DNA of 64,000 nt from Pseudomonas alcaligenes (lineage in GTDB: Bacteria; Pseudomonadota; Gammaproteobacteria; Pseudomonadales; Pseudomonadaceae), in contig NZ_LZEU01000001.1 in NCBI RefSeq assembly GCF_014490745.1, forward strand, positions 3,127,501-3,191,500, written 5' to 3'. The notes under the pieces were generated by a model that was not told the DNA's origin, ran no database searches, and saw nothing but the letters and a program-made list of their open reading frames with translations. The position numbers and the translations under genes were made by a program. This document shows, one piece after another, positions 27,498-34,373 of the stretch (positions are counted from its first letter, which is position 1; every line of letters starts with the position of its first letter).

Positions 27498-28391
27498 TCA
27501 GCCGAGCAGCGCGGAGTCGCCCGGCAGATGCAGGCGCAGCGCCGCCGGACGGGCGGTAAAGCGCAGCTGGCGGCTTTCCAGCGGCTCGCCATCGAGGTTG
27601 ATGTCCAGGCCCTCGCCCGCCGTCACTTCCAGCCAGGGCAGGCGCGCGCTCAAGGACACGCTTTCGAGGCCGAGAATGCCGCCCGACAGCAGGGTACCCA
27701 GGGTGCCAACCAGATCCTGCGGCGCCGGTACTATGCAGATATCCAGCAGACCATCGTCGATGCGTGCCTGCGGGCACAGCACGTGACCGCCGCCGGCCTG
27801 CCGGCCATTACCGATGCCCAGGGCGAGAAACTCGCCTTCCCAGGCGAAATCCGGCCCGCGAAAACGCCCGAAGGCCGAGTGCACCTCGGAAAAACGGGTC
27901 AGCCCGGTAAGCAGATAGGCGGCGCCACCGAGCAGTTTCTTAAGTTCTTCCGACGTATTGGCCGTCACCTTCGAGCCGAAGCCGCCGGTGGCCATGTTGA
28001 GGAACAAACGCCCGCCGACCTCGCCGAGGTCGATCGGTCGCGCCGGCTGTTCGAGCAGCGCCAGCGCCTCGAGCGGCGCCAGTGGTACCCCGGCGGCCCG
28101 GGCGAAGTCGTTGGCGGTACCCAGCGGCAGCAGCGCCAGGCTGGCCGCCCCACCAGCCAGGGCCAGAGCCTCGGCCACTTCGCGCAGGGTACCGTCGCCG
28201 CCACCGGCGATCAGGGTCGGGTAGCCGGCCGCCAGCGCCTCGTCGACCAGGCGCGCGCCGTCGCCGGCCTCCCAGGTCAGGCGTACCGCCAGCTCCCAGC
28301 CGGCCTCGCGCAGCGCCTGCACGGCGGCACGCACTTCGTCGTTCTGCGCCTGCTTGCCATGCAGGATCAGCAATGCCCGGAGTTTGCTCAC
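27498..28391 (-). CDS. yegS: YegS/DAGK-type lipid kinase
   Basis: 297 residues. The diacylglycerol/sphingosine-kinase catalytic signature GGGDGTLREVA lies near residue 64 and LGTANDFARA near 91. E. coli YegS phosphorylates phosphatidylglycerol in vitro. Cytoplasmic, membrane-associated. The start is GTG at 28391 with AGGAG six bases upstream. It follows the FGGY kinase by 68 bp on the same strand and may be the last gene of the flavoenzyme-GlpD-kinase operon, which would fit a glycerolipid role; this link is inference. Confidence 0.9.
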   Translation of the reverse strand: MSKLRALLILHGKQAQNDEVRAAVQALREAGWELAVRLTWEAGDGARLVDEALAAGYPTLIAGGGDGTLREVAEALALAGGAASLALLPLGTANDFARAAGVPLAPLEALALLEQPARPIDLGEVGGRLFLNMATGGFGSKVTANTSEELKKLLGGAAYLLTGLTRFSEVHSAFGRFRGPDFAWEGEFLALGIGNGRQAGGGHVLCPQARIDDGLLDICIVPAPQDLVGTLGTLLSGGILGLESVSLSARLPWLEVTAGEGLDINLDGEPLESRQLRFTARPAALRLHLPGDSALLG

Positions 28392-28459
28392 CGCCTGCTC
28401 CTTTCTTCAGTCTGCGTCCGAGTACAGCAGACCCCGACGCCCACGAGAAAGTGCCGCCG

Positions 28460-30028
28460 TCAGGCCGGGTAGCCGGTGATCTCGCGAATGCTGCCGTACA
28501 GCGGCTTGAGCTGCTTGTACATGCGCAGGTAGACCTCGCGGTACAGCCGCTCGTAGACGCGCTGCGCCGCGGGGTTGGGCTGGAACACCTTGCCGACGCG
28601 GGTCATAGCCGTAATCGCGCTGGGGAAGTCCGGGTACAGGCCCAGGCCCACCGCGCAATCAATGGCCGCGCCCAGGCCGGAGGCCTCATAGACATGCGGG
28701 CGCTCGGCCGGCAGGCCAAAGATATCGGCGGTCAGCTGCATCGCCGCATCGCTCTGCGAACCGCCTCCGGACACGCGCAGGCGGGTGATCGGCGTGCCCG
28801 AGCGCTTCTCGATGCGCTCGCGGCCCTGGCGCAGGGCGTAGGCCAGGCCTTCGAGGATGGCCCGGTACAGGTGCGCGCGGGTGTGCACGTCGCCGAAGCC
28901 GATGATCGAGCCCTTGGCCTCCAGCCCCGGCTCGCGGATGCCCGGCGACCAGAACGGCTGCAGCATCAGGCCCATGGAGCCGGGCGGCACCTGGCTGACC
29001 AGCTCGTCGAACAGGGTTTCCGCCTCCACGCCCAGTTCCAGGGCGCGCTGGCGCTCGGCGTGGCCGAACTGCTCCTTGAACCAGCTGACCATCCAGAAGC
29101 CGCGGAAAATCATGACCTCGGTGTTGTAGTGGTCGGGAATCGCCGCCGGGTACGGCGGGATCAGCGGAATGGTTTCCAGGTAGGTAGCGCGGGTGGTGTT
29201 GATGGTCGCCGTGGTGCCATAGGACAGGCAGGCCGTGCTCGGCTCCACGCCGCCGGCGCCGATTACCTCGCAGGCCTTGTCCGAAGCGGCAGCGATCAGC
29301 GGCAGGCCCTCGGGAATGCCGGTGTGGCGGCTGGCGGCGGCGCTGATGGTGGCAATCAGCTCGCCCGGCTTGACCAGCTCCGGCAGTTGCTGCGGGCGCA
29401 CCGGCATGGCCTGCCATTTCCAGTCGCTGGGCGCGGCCCACTTCAGGCGCTTGTAGTCGAACGGCAGGTAGGCCACGCAACTGCCCACCGAGTCGGCAAA
29501 GCGCCCGGTCAGGCGGTGGGTGAGAAAGCCGGAGAGCATCAGCAGCTTGTGGCTGCGCGCCCAAATTTCCGGCTCGTGCTGGGCGATCCAGTTGACCTCG
29601 GCCTGGGCGCGGAAGTAATCCACCGTCGCCTCTTCGCCGATCAGTTTGAACAGCCAGCCCCAGGGCCCCTTGATCCGCCCGGCGACCTCACTGCGGCGCT
29701 GGTCGAGCCAGAGGATGGCCGGGCGCAGCGGCGTGCCCTGCTCGTCCACGGTGATCAGCGAGCCGCGCTGGGTGGTCAGCGACACCCCCTTGATCAGGCT
29801 GCGGTCGATATCGACGCTGGCCCACAGCTTGGCGCAAGCCTCGCCGAGGCTGCGCCAGTAGTACTCGGGATCCTGCTCGGCCCAGCCCGGCTGGCTGGAA
29901 AAATAGGGCTGCAACTCGACCTTGCCCTTGCCCAGCAGGTTGCCCTGCAGGTCGAACAGCAGGGCGCGCACGCTCTGGGTGCCGTTGTCGATGGCCAGCA
30001 GATAGCTTTGTTCGCTCAAGGCGAGCAC
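28460..30028 (-). CDS. FGGY-family carbohydrate/polyol kinase
   Basis: 522 residues. N-terminal FGGY motif [17 protein letters not shown] with the catalytic-loop Asp, and the C-terminal FGGY half with the ATP-binding segment [19 protein letters not shown] and EASGLGAAI. Family members phosphorylate glycerol, xylulose and similar polyols; the exact substrate cannot be read. The start is uncertain: GTG at 30028, or TTG at 30019 with GGAG eight bases upstream. Only 13 nt behind the GlpD-like gene, so it probably makes the phosphorylated substrate for that dehydrogenase. Confidence 0.88.
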
Positions 30029-30041
30029 TCCATTGTTCTTG

Positions 30042-31619
30042 TTATATCAGCGCCGGCAGGCTGTAGCAGCGCTGCCACAGCACCAGGTAGCGTTGCTGCT
30101 CGGCGTCCCACCGCGCATCGCTCCAGCCCAGGCGCGCCTGGCACAGGGCGCGGATGCGCGGCAGTTCGGCCGCGGCCCCGGCCGCCAGCAGCAGGCCGAT
30201 GCGGGTGCGGCGCAGCAGCAGGTCGTCGAGGTGCAACACCAGCTCGTCCTCGCAGGCCAGCGCCAGCTCGGCCCACAGGGTGTCGCTGGCGCCGATGCGC
30301 GCACTGCCCAGCTCGCCAACCAGCTCGGCCAGGCGTGCCAGCTTGGCGCCATGCCGGCCTGCCAGGCGCTGGCGCAGGGCCGGGCCGAGCTCGGCCAGCA
30401 GTGCCGGCGGTGCGCGAAACACTGCCTGGCCCTGATCATCCACCGCCTTGCCGACGAAGCCGGCGCAGGCCCGCAGCACTTCCAGGGCCAGCAGGCGGAA
30501 GGTAGTCAGCTTGCCACCGGCCAGGGTCACGCAGCCGGGCTCGAGCCACAGGACATGCTCGCGCTTCTCGTCGGAGGGCTTGGCGCTGTCGTCGCCACTG
30601 CTGACCACCGGGCGCACGCCGGCCCAGGTCGACAGCACGTCGGCGCGCTCGATGGCCGCCTCGGGGAACTGGCTGGCACAGGCGGCCAACAGGTAGGCGA
30701 CCTCCTCCGGACTGATCCGCGCCTCCTCGCCCAGGCCGTCGTGGTGATCGAGGTCGGTGGTGCCGATCACCGTCGCCCCTTCCCAGGGGAAGACGAACAC
30801 CGGACGCCCGTCCGCCGGATGCATGAAGCTCAGCGCCTGGGCCACCGGCAGCCGCCAGTGAGGCAGCAGCAGATGGCTGCCGCGCAGCGGGCGGATATGC
30901 TCGCAGCCGTCGCGCTGGCGCAGCTCGTCGGCCCAGGCGCCGGTGGCCTGGGCCACGGCGCGGGTGCGCAAGGTGAAGCGCCGGCCAGTCTCGCTATCCT
31001 CGGCGAGCAGGCCGCAGACCCGGCCGTTGTCGCGCAGCAGCTCGACCACGCGCAGGCCGTTGAGCGCCTCGCCGCCGTCGGCACGCGCCTCGCCGAGCAC
31101 GCGCATGACCAGGCGGGCGTCGTCGGTGACCGCATCGGCAAAGCCGGTGGCGCCATCCAGGCCGTTCTCGCCGATGCCCGGCATCAGGTAGCGCAGCTGT
31201 TGCAGCGGGTAGTACAGGTGGTTGCGCCGCCCGGCCAGGGCGTCGTACACGGCGAGCAGGCCGCCGAACACCCGCGGCCCGGGGAAGCGCCCGCGATAGT
31301 GCGGAAACAGGAAGGGTAGCGGCTCGACCAGGCCCGGCGCCTCGGCCAGCAGACGCTGGCGCTCGCGCACCGAGTCGCGGGTCAGGCCCAGCTGGCCCTT
31401 GGCGATATAGCGCAGGCCGCCGTGCACCATCTTCGACGAGCGACTGGAAGTACCCCAGGCGAAGTCGCGCTGCTCCAGCAGCAGGCAACGCCAGCCACGC
31501 CGCGCTGCCTCGCGCAGGATGCCGGCACCGCTGATGCCGCCGCCGACGACGATCAGATCCCAGTCGCGCGCCGCCAGCTCGGGCAGCGCCTGCTCGCGCC
31601 ATTGCGCGTTCCAGTTCAT
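30042..31619 (-). CDS. GlpD-like FAD-dependent glycerol-3-phosphate dehydrogenase
   Basis: 525 residues. FAD-binding motif [19 protein letters not shown] near residue 20, GlpD signatures [14 protein letters not shown] and [16 protein letters not shown]. Oxidises sn-glycerol 3-phosphate (or a related phosphopolyol) to the ketone (DHAP) at the membrane, passing electrons to quinone. It is not in the usual glpFKRD cluster. The ATG at 31619 begins one base after the flavoenzyme stop, with GGAAGA inside the end of that gene, so translation is coupled. Substrate assignment beyond the family is open. Confidence 0.87.
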
Positions 31620-31620
31620 C

Positions 31621-33219
31621 TCAGTCTTCCAGCAGCACACCGGGGGCCAAACGGCTTTCGGGGTCGAAGTGCTGCGCCATGCTCTTGAGCGCGGCGATGC
31701 CCAGCTCGCCCTTCTCCGCCGCCAGGTAGGGCGCGTGGTCGCGCCCTACGCCGTGCTGGTGGCTGATGGTGCCGCGGTTGCTGGCGATGGTCTGGCTGGC
31801 GGCGTGCTTGAGCTTGCCCCAGCGTGCCAAGGTCTCGGCATAGCTGGCGCCGGGGCGGAATACGTAGGTGGTGTAGATGCTCGAACCCTGGCCGTAGACA
31901 TGCGACAGGTGGGTGAACACGTGCACGCGCTCGCCCTCCGCGGCCAGGCCGTCGCGCAGGCTGGCCTCGACCTGGTTCAGCAGGTGGTCGACGTTGTTCC
32001 AGTCGGTGGCCGTCTCCAGGGTATCCACCGCATAGCCGGCGGCCCACAGGCCATGGCGCAGATAGGGGAAGCGGAAACGGTTTTCCGCCCACTTGTTGCC
32101 CAGCAGGGTGCCGGTGAACACCCCGCCAAAACCTTTGAGCAACTGCTTGGCCTGCTTCACCGACAGCGCGTTCTGCTTGCGGTTGCCGGTAACGCCGAAA
32201 GTCAGCATGCACTTGCCGCCGCGCGCGCCGCGCAGGGCCAGGTATTTCTCCAGCAGGGCGATCTGCTCGGGATGGCCGGCCAGGGCCAGCTGGGTTTCAG
32301 TCTCGATGGCATTGGACAGGCGCAGCATCGACAGCGGGATGCGCGCCTGCACCAGGGCGCGAATGCCGGCCAGGGCCTGCTGCCAGCTGGGCAGGAACAC
32401 CGCGTAGAAGCGCTCCTGCTCGGCCAGTTTGCTGACCCGCACCTTGACCTCGGAAATCACCCCGAAGCGCCCTTCCGAACCAAGGATCAGCTCGCGCAGA
32501 TCCGGGCCGGCCGCCGAGGCCGGGAAGGTCGGCAGCTCCAGGGTGCCGGCAAAGGTCTCCACGGTGCCGCCAGCAAACAGCTGCTCGATGCGCCCATAGC
32601 GCAGCGACTGCTGGCCGCTGGAACGGCTGGCCACCCAGCCACCGAGGGTCGACAGTTCCCAGGACTGCGGGAAGTGGCCGAGGGTGTAGCCGCGCGCGCG
32701 CAGCTGAGCTTCCACCTGCGGGCCGTTGGCGCCGGGGCCGAAGGTGGCGATCTGGCTTTCCTCGTCCAGCTCCAGCAAGCGGCTCATGCGCTCCAGCGAC
32801 AGGGTCAGCACCGGCCGCGCGCCAGCCTGCGGGTTGATGTGCCCGGCCACCGAGGTGCCGCCACCGTAGGGAATCAGCACCAGGTTGTGCTGCTGCGCCC
32901 AGGCCAGCAGCTCGCGGATCTGCGCTGCACTCTCCGGCTGGGCCACGCCATCGGGGAACTGGCCGAAATCGCCGGAGCGCATGGCCAGCCAGTCCGGCAG
33001 GCTCTGCCCGCGGGCATGGCGCACGCGCACCTCGGCGTCGGTGCTGACCAGCGGGTGGCTGGCCGGCAGGCGCGAGGCCGGCACCTGCGCCAGCACCTCG
33101 GCCAGGGTCGCGTCAGGCAGAACCTGACCGGCACCTACCCGCCCGGCGAGGAAGGCCCCGCCATGGGCCGGCAGCTCCACCACAGTGGCCTCGTCACCCC
33201 ATCCGTTCCAACGTCGCAT
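31621..33219 (-). CDS. FAD-binding oxidase similar to alkyl-DHAP synthase
   Basis: 532 residues in the VAO/PCMH flavoprotein family. N-terminal RWNGWGD, PP-loop PYGGGTSV (117-124), FPQSWELSTLGGW (183-195), GSEGRFGVISEV near 248 and a C-terminal SHQHGVG (486-492). These correspond to landmarks of peroxisomal alkylglycerone-phosphate synthase, the enzyme that forms the ether bond of ether lipids, including its His-rich motif. The ATG at 33219 (MRRWNGWG) has GGGGA upstream; an ATG at 33249 lacks a site. First gene of a four-gene leftward unit with the GlpD-like and kinase genes. Ether-lipid function is inference; an oxidase role is possible. Confidence 0.82.
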   Translation of the reverse strand: MRRWNGWGDEATVVELPAHGGAFLAGRVGAGQVLPDATLAEVLAQVPASRLPASHPLVSTDAEVRVRHARGQSLPDWLAMRSGDFGQFPDGVAQPESAAQIRELLAWAQQHNLVLIPYGGGTSVAGHINPQAGARPVLTLSLERMSRLLELDEESQIATFGPGANGPQVEAQLRARGYTLGHFPQSWELSTLGGWVASRSSGQQSLRYGRIEQLFAGGTVETFAGTLELPTFPASAAGPDLRELILGSEGRFGVISEVKVRVSKLAEQERFYAVFLPSWQQALAGIRALVQARIPLSMLRLSNAIETETQLALAGHPEQIALLEKYLALRGARGGKCMLTFGVTGNRKQNALSVKQAKQLLKGFGGVFTGTLLGNKWAENRFRFPYLRHGLWAAGYAVDTLETATDWNNVDHLLNQVEASLRDGLAAEGERVHVFTHLSHVYGQGSSIYTTYVFRPGASYAETLARWGKLKHAASQTIASNRGTISHQHGVGRDHAPYLAAEKGELGIAALKSMAQHFDPESRLAPGVLLED

Positions 33220-33344
33220 GCGCAATTCCCCGCCTATTCCGGTCGTCATCAATGGCTGCCTATACTAGCCAGCCGCCCTGCCCGGTCACTGTCGGATCAG
33301 GACAGTGGCTGTCGCCAATCAAGCCAAGCAGAACAACAAAAACG

Positions 33345-34373
33345 ATGCACAACCTCGGCTACACCTCGGTTCCCGCCCTGCTCAAGTACCTGCGCTACGC
33401 CGAGCAGCTCGACCTCGACTGCGCGGCCGCCCTGGCCGCCGCCGGCCTGCAGCGCGAGACCCTGAGCGACAACGGCAAACGCATCCCCAGCGAAGAGCAT
33501 GAGCGCCTGCTGAGCCACCTGGTCAGCGCCAGCGGCGACCCGCTGTTCGGCCTGCACTCCGCCAGTTTCGTGCAGCCCGGTTCATGGAGCGTGCTCGGCT
33601 ACATCACCATGAACTGCGCCACCCTGGGCGAAGCCATGAGCCGCATCGTGCCGTACGAGAAACTGGTCGGTGACATGGGCACCAGCCGCATGGAACAGGT
33701 CGGCAGCCAGGTGCACCTGAGCTGGGACTGCCGCCACGACAGCCCGGAAATCCGCCGCCACATGGTGGAAAACGTCCTCGCCTCCTGGCTGCTCTACGCT
33801 CGCTGGATCGCCGACATGGACAAGTCGCCGGATGAGGTGTGGTTCGAGCATGCCCAGCCGGCCGGCACCACTCAGGAGGACTACCAGGCGGTGTTCGGCT
33901 GCCCGGTGCGCTTCGCCCAGCCGAGCAACACCCTGCTGGTGCCGCTGGCCTACCTGGGCATCCCGCTGCGCCAGGCCGATGCCAACCTGCTGCGCACCCT
34001 GGAAGAACACGCGCTGACCATGATGGCCGGCCTGGACAGCGATGAACCGCTGCCGCTACGGGTCAAGAACGCCCTGCGCCTGCTGCTCAAGGACGGCCTG
34101 CCGCGCAAGGAGCGGGTCGCGGAGAAATTCAACATGACGGTGCGCACCCTGCAGCGCCACTTGCAGCAGGCCGGTACCAGCTACCAGGAAATCCTCGACC
34201 AGCTGCGCCAGGAGCTGGCCGAGCACTACCTGCTGCGCAGCGACCTGGCGATCCAGGATATCGCCTGCTACCTCGGCTTCACCGAGTCGCGCTCGTTCCA
34301 CCGCAGCTTCAAGGCCTGCACCGGCATGACGCCCGGGGAGTTCCGCGAGCAGCACAAGGGCAACGCACTGTAG
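33345..34373 (+). CDS. AraC-family transcriptional regulator
   Basis: 342 residues: an N-terminal arabinose_bd-like sensing domain (HNLGYTSVPALLKYL) and a C-terminal two-helix-turn-helix AraC DNA-binding domain (RVAEKFNMTVRTLQRHLQQAG; DIACYLGFTESRSFHRSFK, about 265-335). Regulators of this subgroup usually activate a neighbouring lipid- or hydrolase-type operon. Divergent from the alkyl-DHAP-synthase-like gene with 125 bp between, so that operon is the probable target. The ATG at 33345 is the first good codon giving the family start; earlier in-frame codons overlap the shared promoter. Confidence 0.9.
   Translation: MHNLGYTSVPALLKYLRYAEQLDLDCAAALAAAGLQRETLSDNGKRIPSEEHERLLSHLVSASGDPLFGLHSASFVQPGSWSVLGYITMNCATLGEAMSRIVPYEKLVGDMGTSRMEQVGSQVHLSWDCRHDSPEIRRHMVENVLASWLLYARWIADMDKSPDEVWFEHAQPAGTTQEDYQAVFGCPVRFAQPSNTLLVPLAYLGIPLRQADANLLRTLEEHALTMMAGLDSDEPLPLRVKNALRLLLKDGLPRKERVAEKFNMTVRTLQRHLQQAGTSYQEILDQLRQELAEHYLLRSDLAIQDIACYLGFTESRSFHRSFKACTGMTPGEFREQHKGNAL

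Follow-up and report, generated by a model that had tools for sequence, protein, structure and literature searches.

A GliR-linked operon of Pseudomonas alcaligenes as a candidate cassette for the cleavage of ether glycerolipids

Does a bacterial relative of alkyl-dihydroxyacetone phosphate synthase (AGPS), encoded together with a dehydrogenase and two kinases, serve to make ether lipids or to break them down? The question is raised by positions 27,498 to 34,373 of the window, by which we mean the whole 64,000-nucleotide stretch of the Pseudomonas alcaligenes genome that was analysed (contig NZ_LZEU01000001.1, positions 3,127,501 to 3,191,500), where a GliR-type AraC-family gene on the plus strand faces a leftward four-gene operon. 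The operon is real, conserved and partly published. We propose, with a probability of roughly 0.45, that it may be a salvage or catabolic cassette under GliR control, acting on 1-O-alkyl (ether) glycerolipids by alkylglycerol cleavage. Gene order, the fold and catalytic residues of the flavoenzyme, its clade separation, the changes in the kinase site and a conserved operator-like repeat can be read directly from the DNA. The original prediction had the landmarks, spacing and orientation of the AGPS-like, GlpD-like, FGGY and YegS genes and of the divergent AraC gene all correct, and the parts are as follows (DHAP, dihydroxyacetone phosphate; FAD, flavin adenine dinucleotide).

33345..34373, plus strand: AraC-family activator, ortholog of GliR (PA3027), passing the NCBIfam equivalog cut-off (NF050186, 655.1 bits against 570); PF12625 and HTH_18
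33285..33326, minus strand: candidate GliR operator, two direct half-sites with a 22-bp period, from the intergene footprint; the proximal half-site overlaps the putative -35
33262..33290, minus strand: putative weak operon promoter, -10 TAGTAT and -35 GTGACC overlapping the proximal half-site, placed by eye and by the conserved block around TAGTAT
31621..33219, minus strand: AGPS-like FAD enzyme, PA3026 ortholog; proposed alkyl-DHAP-cleaving or exchanging enzyme
30042..31619, minus strand: GlpD-like FAD dehydrogenase (DAO/DAO_C), PA3025 ortholog; proposed C2 oxidation of 1-O-substituted glycerol-3-phosphate
28460..30028, minus strand: FGGY kinase (FGGY_N/C), PA3024 ortholog, with a non-canonical substrate site; proposed alkylglycerol-type kinase
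27498..28391, minus strand: YegS/DAGK-type lipid kinase, PA3023 ortholog, passing the NCBIfam equivalog cut-off (TIGR03702, 435.2 bits against 387.45); optional part, a neighbour in some Pseudomonas

The window flavoenzyme has the AGPS fold, including the N-terminal region, and at positions that we take to be catalytic in AGPS (guinea-pig numbering) it keeps H300, T309, R419, R515, Y578, H615 and H617, with S527 replaced by T and the full HHH motif broken by Q at H616. The predicted agreement at the catalytic Tyr, Thr and His residues therefore holds at Y578, T309, H300, H615 and H617 and fails at H616. A D-lactate or glycolate oxidase identity, the outcome that would have spoken against the AGPS assignment, was rejected, as the protein aligns far better with AGPS and falls well below the GlcD equivalog cut-off (99.9 bits against 567.9). 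When 61 sequences were placed in a tree (IQ-TREE, drawn midpoint-rooted), the window enzyme fell in the main GlpD/FGGY-linked clade of 35 rows (support 100/99), which has a weakly supported neighbour (92/73) in an actinobacterial GlpD-linked group of three rows, and apart from a eukaryotic-type group in which the Dictyostelium and guinea-pig AGPS join bacterial sequences from L090, L092, L093, L094 and L123 (99/96). Residue 616 is Q in 31 of the 35 rows of the window's clade, versus H in 7/7 of the eukaryotic-type group. As far as sequence can tell, the flavoenzyme is an AGPS by fold and by most active-site residues, and by clade and partners it is not.

The two groups also keep different company. 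A PF01553 acyltransferase accompanies AGPS in all five bacterial members of the eukaryotic-type group, fused to it (L094) or no more than 140 bp away, whereas none was detected within 6 kb in any of 109 GlpD/FGGY-linked loci (107 distinct); one of the latter, L085, has a Pfam-confirmed PF01553 acyltransferase at 6.8 kb. In L090 and L123 the acyltransferase gene immediately precedes AGPS, in L093 it lies 140 bp ahead of it, and in L092 it follows after 3 bp. Fatty-acyl reductase genes are present in the fetched stretches of two of the five eukaryotic-type loci (fused to the acyltransferase in L093, 2.6 kb away in L123) and in 0 of the 109. The acyltransferase search model was built from four of the five positives and the reductase model from its two finds, and Pfam confirms them all; the groups were defined by the presence of GlpD/FGGY, their loci are related by descent and, with a mean total flank of 10.5-14.6 kb by group, some loci were viewed only in part. 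Wider hunts for eukaryotic-type loci returned only that of L093 from a search of three genomes and, from 19 of 398 genomes, that of L093 again and 18 known already (15 GlpD-linked and three of a plasmid-like type), so that the contrast, although strong, rests on five bacterial loci. Within the eukaryotic-type group, a single open reading frame encodes both the reductase and the acyltransferase immediately ahead of AGPS (L093:2106-6567), an arrangement that could be a compact kit for ether-lipid synthesis, and HMG-CoA reductase sequences (PF00368, ~350 bits) near the acyltransferase and AGPS genes at L090:3391-6975 and L094:286-5270 might hint at isoprenoid-linked ether lipids.

What, then, do the kinase and the dehydrogenase recognise? 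The genome's own GlpK and GlpD (727 bits against a cut-off of 590, and 811 against 360) served as references, and the residues compared are those presumed, on the model of the E. coli enzymes, to line the substrate sites. Among 93 kinases, that of the window and those of 92 loci, E84 is kept in none (G in 62, A in 18, others in 13), Q246 is K in 88 and F270 is lost in 92 and kept in one; W103 and D245 are retained in all 93 and R83 in 92. The window kinase has G, K and T at E84, Q246 and F270, respectively, and at 152.5 bits does not pass the GlpK family cut-off of 590. The window dehydrogenase likewise falls short of the curated GlpD equivalog cut-off (264.6 bits against 360), and it keeps the glycerol-3-phosphate (G3P)-site residues R54, Y55, H233, R317, R332 and K354, the first three of which are kept in 105/105 GlpD-like rows and the others in 104, with one gap each (the short L117, L141 and L189 were dropped). 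These site residues indicate, therefore, that the dehydrogenase probably still reads a G3P head and that the kinase is unlike glycerol kinase, which would fit a substrate with an sn-G3P head and a different tail. Ordinary glycerol catabolism through a redundant glycerol/G3P pathway, with the flavoenzyme as a D-2-hydroxyacid-type oxidase, would be in keeping with FGGY family membership and the intact G3P site, but GlpK and GlpD proteins passing NCBIfam cut-offs are encoded elsewhere in this genome, the flavoenzyme resembles AGPS and not lactate or glycolate oxidases, and PMC8151288 reports no glycerol phenotype for the corresponding P. aeruginosa deletion. With the loss of E84, Q246 and F270 from the kinase, which disfavours a plain glycerol pathway, this reading appears very improbable.

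In the route that we propose instead, the FGGY kinase would phosphorylate 1-O-alkylglycerol at sn-3, the GlpD-like flavoprotein would oxidise C2 to a ketone and pass the electrons to quinone, and the AGPS-like enzyme, acting as AGPS in reverse, would exploit the ketone so formed to cleave the C1-O bond via an FAD N5 adduct, yielding a fatty alcohol and, depending on whether water or a fatty acid takes part, DHAP or acyl-DHAP, respectively. AGPS chemistry requires a C2 ketone beside a C1 leaving group, an arrangement that in animals is provided by an acyltransferase acting on DHAP. In the present set, the kinase and the GlpD-type dehydrogenase would add the phosphate and the ketone to a glycerol that already carries a 1-O-substituent, and with an alkyl chain as that substituent the AGPS-like step would release the fatty alcohol. 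Because each enzyme would make the handle for the next, neither a DHAP acyltransferase nor a fatty-acyl reductase would be needed, and the upstream quinone-linked oxidation would push the sequence toward breakdown. We infer the substrate, direction and chemistry of this route from the features described above. The GlpK and GlpD encoded elsewhere, and the normal growth on glycerol of a PA3026-PA3024 deletion (PMC8151288), count for cleavage. A little more tentative is the wider suggestion that bacteria may commonly cleave glycerol ether lipids in this way, by a kinase, a C2 dehydrogenase and a reversed AGPS with no O2 as substrate, as a second way besides the alkylglycerol monooxygenase AGMO.

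Synthesis, the published direction, is less likely than cleavage, and we regard it as unlikely. Alkyl-DHAP for ether phospholipids would be made either from glycerol via DHAP, the route put forward in PMC8151288, or by way of acyl-G3P and acyl-DHAP from monoacylglycerol, a route that would avoid a DHAP acyltransferase. The AGPS fold and residues, the YegS lipid kinase nearby and the published interpretation all favour synthesis, but making DHAP needs neither kinase nor respiratory dehydrogenase, and the Q at position 616 sets the window's clade apart from the eukaryotic-type enzymes. In the window's genome PF07993, the only reductase family searched, gave 10 matches, the best at 49.7 bits versus 189 in L093, and none of them stands out as a dedicated fatty-acyl reductase. 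It had been suggested from the sequence that the set might make or break ether lipids; breaking is now favoured, and making is the weaker half, as the enzyme lies outside the clade of eukaryotic and acyltransferase-linked AGPS, the kinase is non-canonical and the genome has GlpK and GlpD elsewhere. The same logic of phosphorylation, oxidation and elimination could also serve another 1-O-substituted glycerol or polyol, such as a short glycol or aryl glyceryl ether or a glycosylglycerol. A kinase site unlike that of glycerol kinase would suit such a substrate, as would distant homologs that lie beside a sugar-phosphate isomerase and an MFS transporter (L029) or LacI and an ABC transporter (L124); however, these sugar-type contexts occur only in relatives 27-28% identical, and the FadR-type regulators and lipid kinases found in the neighbourhood speak for lipids, so that this substrate class is doubtful as well.

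How widely is the cassette conserved? Of 99 genomes from the genus, counting that of the window, 33 have the flavoenzyme, a frequency in keeping with an accessory trait; in one of these (G420) the copy, at C1:5257981-5259477, is split into three and may be a decayed gene. Besides the window, 29 genus loci were fetched, and 28 have GlpD in the 1.5-kb flank (L045 begins at a contig end) and 28 have GliR (the exception is L057). At E <= 1e-30, matches were found in 12/369 genomes of the class and 22/398 of the phylum, distant relatives included, and by record title the best 80 of at least 581 relatives, kept from a scan of named genomes, are spread over Pseudomonadota, Chloroflexota and several further phyla, with many metagenome-assembled genomes among them. 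The 137 loci examined (135 distinct, as L086 = L207 and L112 = L210) comprise 90 with both GlpD and FGGY, 17 with GlpD only, two with FGGY only and 28 with neither, some of these 28 at contig ends. The usual order is AGPS-GlpD-FGGY on one strand, with no further constant partner: Pfam searches of 50 selected flanking open reading frames outside Pseudomonas returned mostly unrelated families or none, FadR excepted. Only 9 of the 90 trio loci have a YegS gene detected within 7 kb, which rules it out as a core part, and of the four-gene block it is the AGPS-GlpD-FGGY trio that recurs, across several phyla; within the genus the trio is present in, for example, P. chlororaphis EA105 (L149). An apparent GlpD-AGPS fusion in L079 proved on inspection to be separate frames. 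Close to the cassette, but encoded on the other strand, are AMP-binding (acyl-CoA-ligase-type) proteins at L169:11952-13478, L193:4943-6640 and L206:11762-13294, and a G3P-responsive antiterminator (PF04309; L107:2-574) is located beside a divergent AGPS-GlpD-FGGY trio.

Alignment of the GliR-AGPS intergene in 26 rows, among them the window and two rows that duplicate each other (L149, with an empty interval, was dropped), revealed a direct repeat with a 22-bp period followed by a conserved -10-like box that mostly reads TAGTAT; a consensus promoter scan found no promoter for the operon. With three mismatches allowed, the composite pattern occurs once in the genome (window 33285-33326, minus strand), a match that arises by construction because the pattern was drawn from the same alignment, and the reversed-pattern control gave 0. 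The proximal half-site is not specific by itself, with 30 matches at three mismatches versus 19 in the control. GliR may be a dedicated local activator in this genome. In P. aeruginosa, according to PMC8151288, which gave PA3027 the name GliR, an excess of this regulator increases PA3026-PA3023 and the phospholipase C gene PA3464 by more than 40-fold, and PA3342 (DUF2804) is also strongly raised. Two DUF2804 genes are present in the window's own genome (C1:2748424 and C1:1595112) and none in 14 control genomes. Motifs A and B, as given for GliR in PMC8151288, have no match in the intergene 33220-33344 within the allowed mismatches, and motif A is over-frequent across the whole window (106 matches versus 33 expected). 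A FadR_C gene lies directly upstream of AGPS, and in the same orientation, in 13 loci (L135, L138, L140, L141, L152, L155, L157, L162, L164, L169, L180, L185 and L188; Pfam, 71-140 bits, cut-off 23.6), with a GntR domain too in 11 and only the FadR_C part left by contig ends in the other two; these are 11 of the 19 Chloroflexota-titled loci, L162 (Holophagales) and L155 (a 'Bacillota' metagenome-assembled genome). A lipid link is supported both by these FadR-type genes and by the GliR biology in PMC8151288.

Several observations weigh against cleavage. The catalytic residues are nearly those of a synthase, and none of the sources consulted shows a reversal of AGPS. The kinase is not always local, as 17 AGPS-GlpD loci, some at contig ends, have no detected FGGY, and the AGPS-GlpD-FGGY partnership is not one clean clade, since L029, L107 and L124, with GlpD and/or FGGY, form a far clade outside both main groups and across the eukaryotic-type group from that of the window, and the trio label needs five changes on the 61-row tree. 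A FadR-type regulator would fit lipid synthesis as well. The published phospholipase C link is not seen here, because the operator pattern occurs once in the genome. In PMC8151288 the PA3026-PA3024 deletion has no growth defect, with growth unchanged on glycerol and in the Biolog plates tested. With C18 alkane the PA3026 protein reaches about half the level found with C16 (PMC5491041), a difference that points neither way.

Distant AGPS-like relatives (~27-33% identical) share plasmid clusters of Sphingopyxis macrogoltabida and Xanthobacter dioxanivorans with GMC oxidoreductases, AMP-ligases and glutathione S-transferase (GST), and a similar cluster is present in Aminobacter. A polyethylene glycol (PEG)-carboxylate dehydrogenase, which acts on glycol-ether acids, functions with GST in PEG metabolism, and work of Somyoonsap from 2008 reportedly describes the pair in Sphingopyxis. 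GST-adjacent relatives in hosts named for PEG or dioxane count for the cleavage reading, although the ether-cleaving role of these plasmid relatives is only presumed. Other distant relatives adjoin CoA-transferases and transporters. Streptomyces and Tsukamurella loci combine GlpD, TetR, the AGPS-like gene and a lipid kinase, and Rv2249c-Rv2252 of mycobacteria is presumably a parallel. Sterol-desaturase-family genes, of a superfamily that we take to include AGMO, occur near distant AGPS-like genes at L128:6785-14804 and L023:14783-15727.

If true, the cleavage reading would provide a three-step, directly testable pathway and explain the absent glycerol phenotype of the P. aeruginosa operon deletion. 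It would also divide the bacterial homologs of AGPS into probable makers and probable breakers of ether lipids, a distinction of importance to annotation. No paper on a bacterial alkylglycerol-ether recycling pathway, above all an O2-free one, was found in the open-licence literature searched. The P. aeruginosa operon and the synthesis idea are already in PMC8151288; the occurrence of the trio in several phyla and the proposed cleavage direction are added here. The gene order given for P. aeruginosa was correct, and the accompanying view that it had no assigned function was so in part, as the same paper offers a near-identical interpretation, without a phenotype.

Compared with eukaryotic AGPS (EC 2.5.1.26), the window enzyme belongs to a separate clade and has Q for H616, and its partners are GlpD and a kinase, where the bacterial clade-mates of the eukaryotic enzyme have an acyltransferase instead. 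The genes, their order and the divergent regulator are the same as in PA3026-PA3023/GliR of P. aeruginosa (PMC8151288). There, four of 1748 genomes have the full set of clustered orthologs and eight more a similar PA3027 and PA3026-PA3024 arrangement, and the cluster is considered limited to a few strains, in contrast to the trio found here in several phyla; glycerol is suggested to yield alkylglycerone phosphate (alkyl-DHAP) with the acyltransferase unknown, whereas we propose cleavage, and the conserved repeat found here is unlike motifs A and B. The Sphingopyxis PEG-carboxylate dehydrogenase and GST are likened to the AGPS-like relatives beside GST in the plasmid clusters, which are ~29% identical to the window enzyme and have no GlpD or kinase partner detected beside them. 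AGMO, described in 2021 as the one enzyme known to cleave alkylglycerols (PMC7911779), is a tetrahydrobiopterin-dependent monooxygenase (PMC9192799); the proposed route would share its substrates but would proceed without O2 as a substrate.

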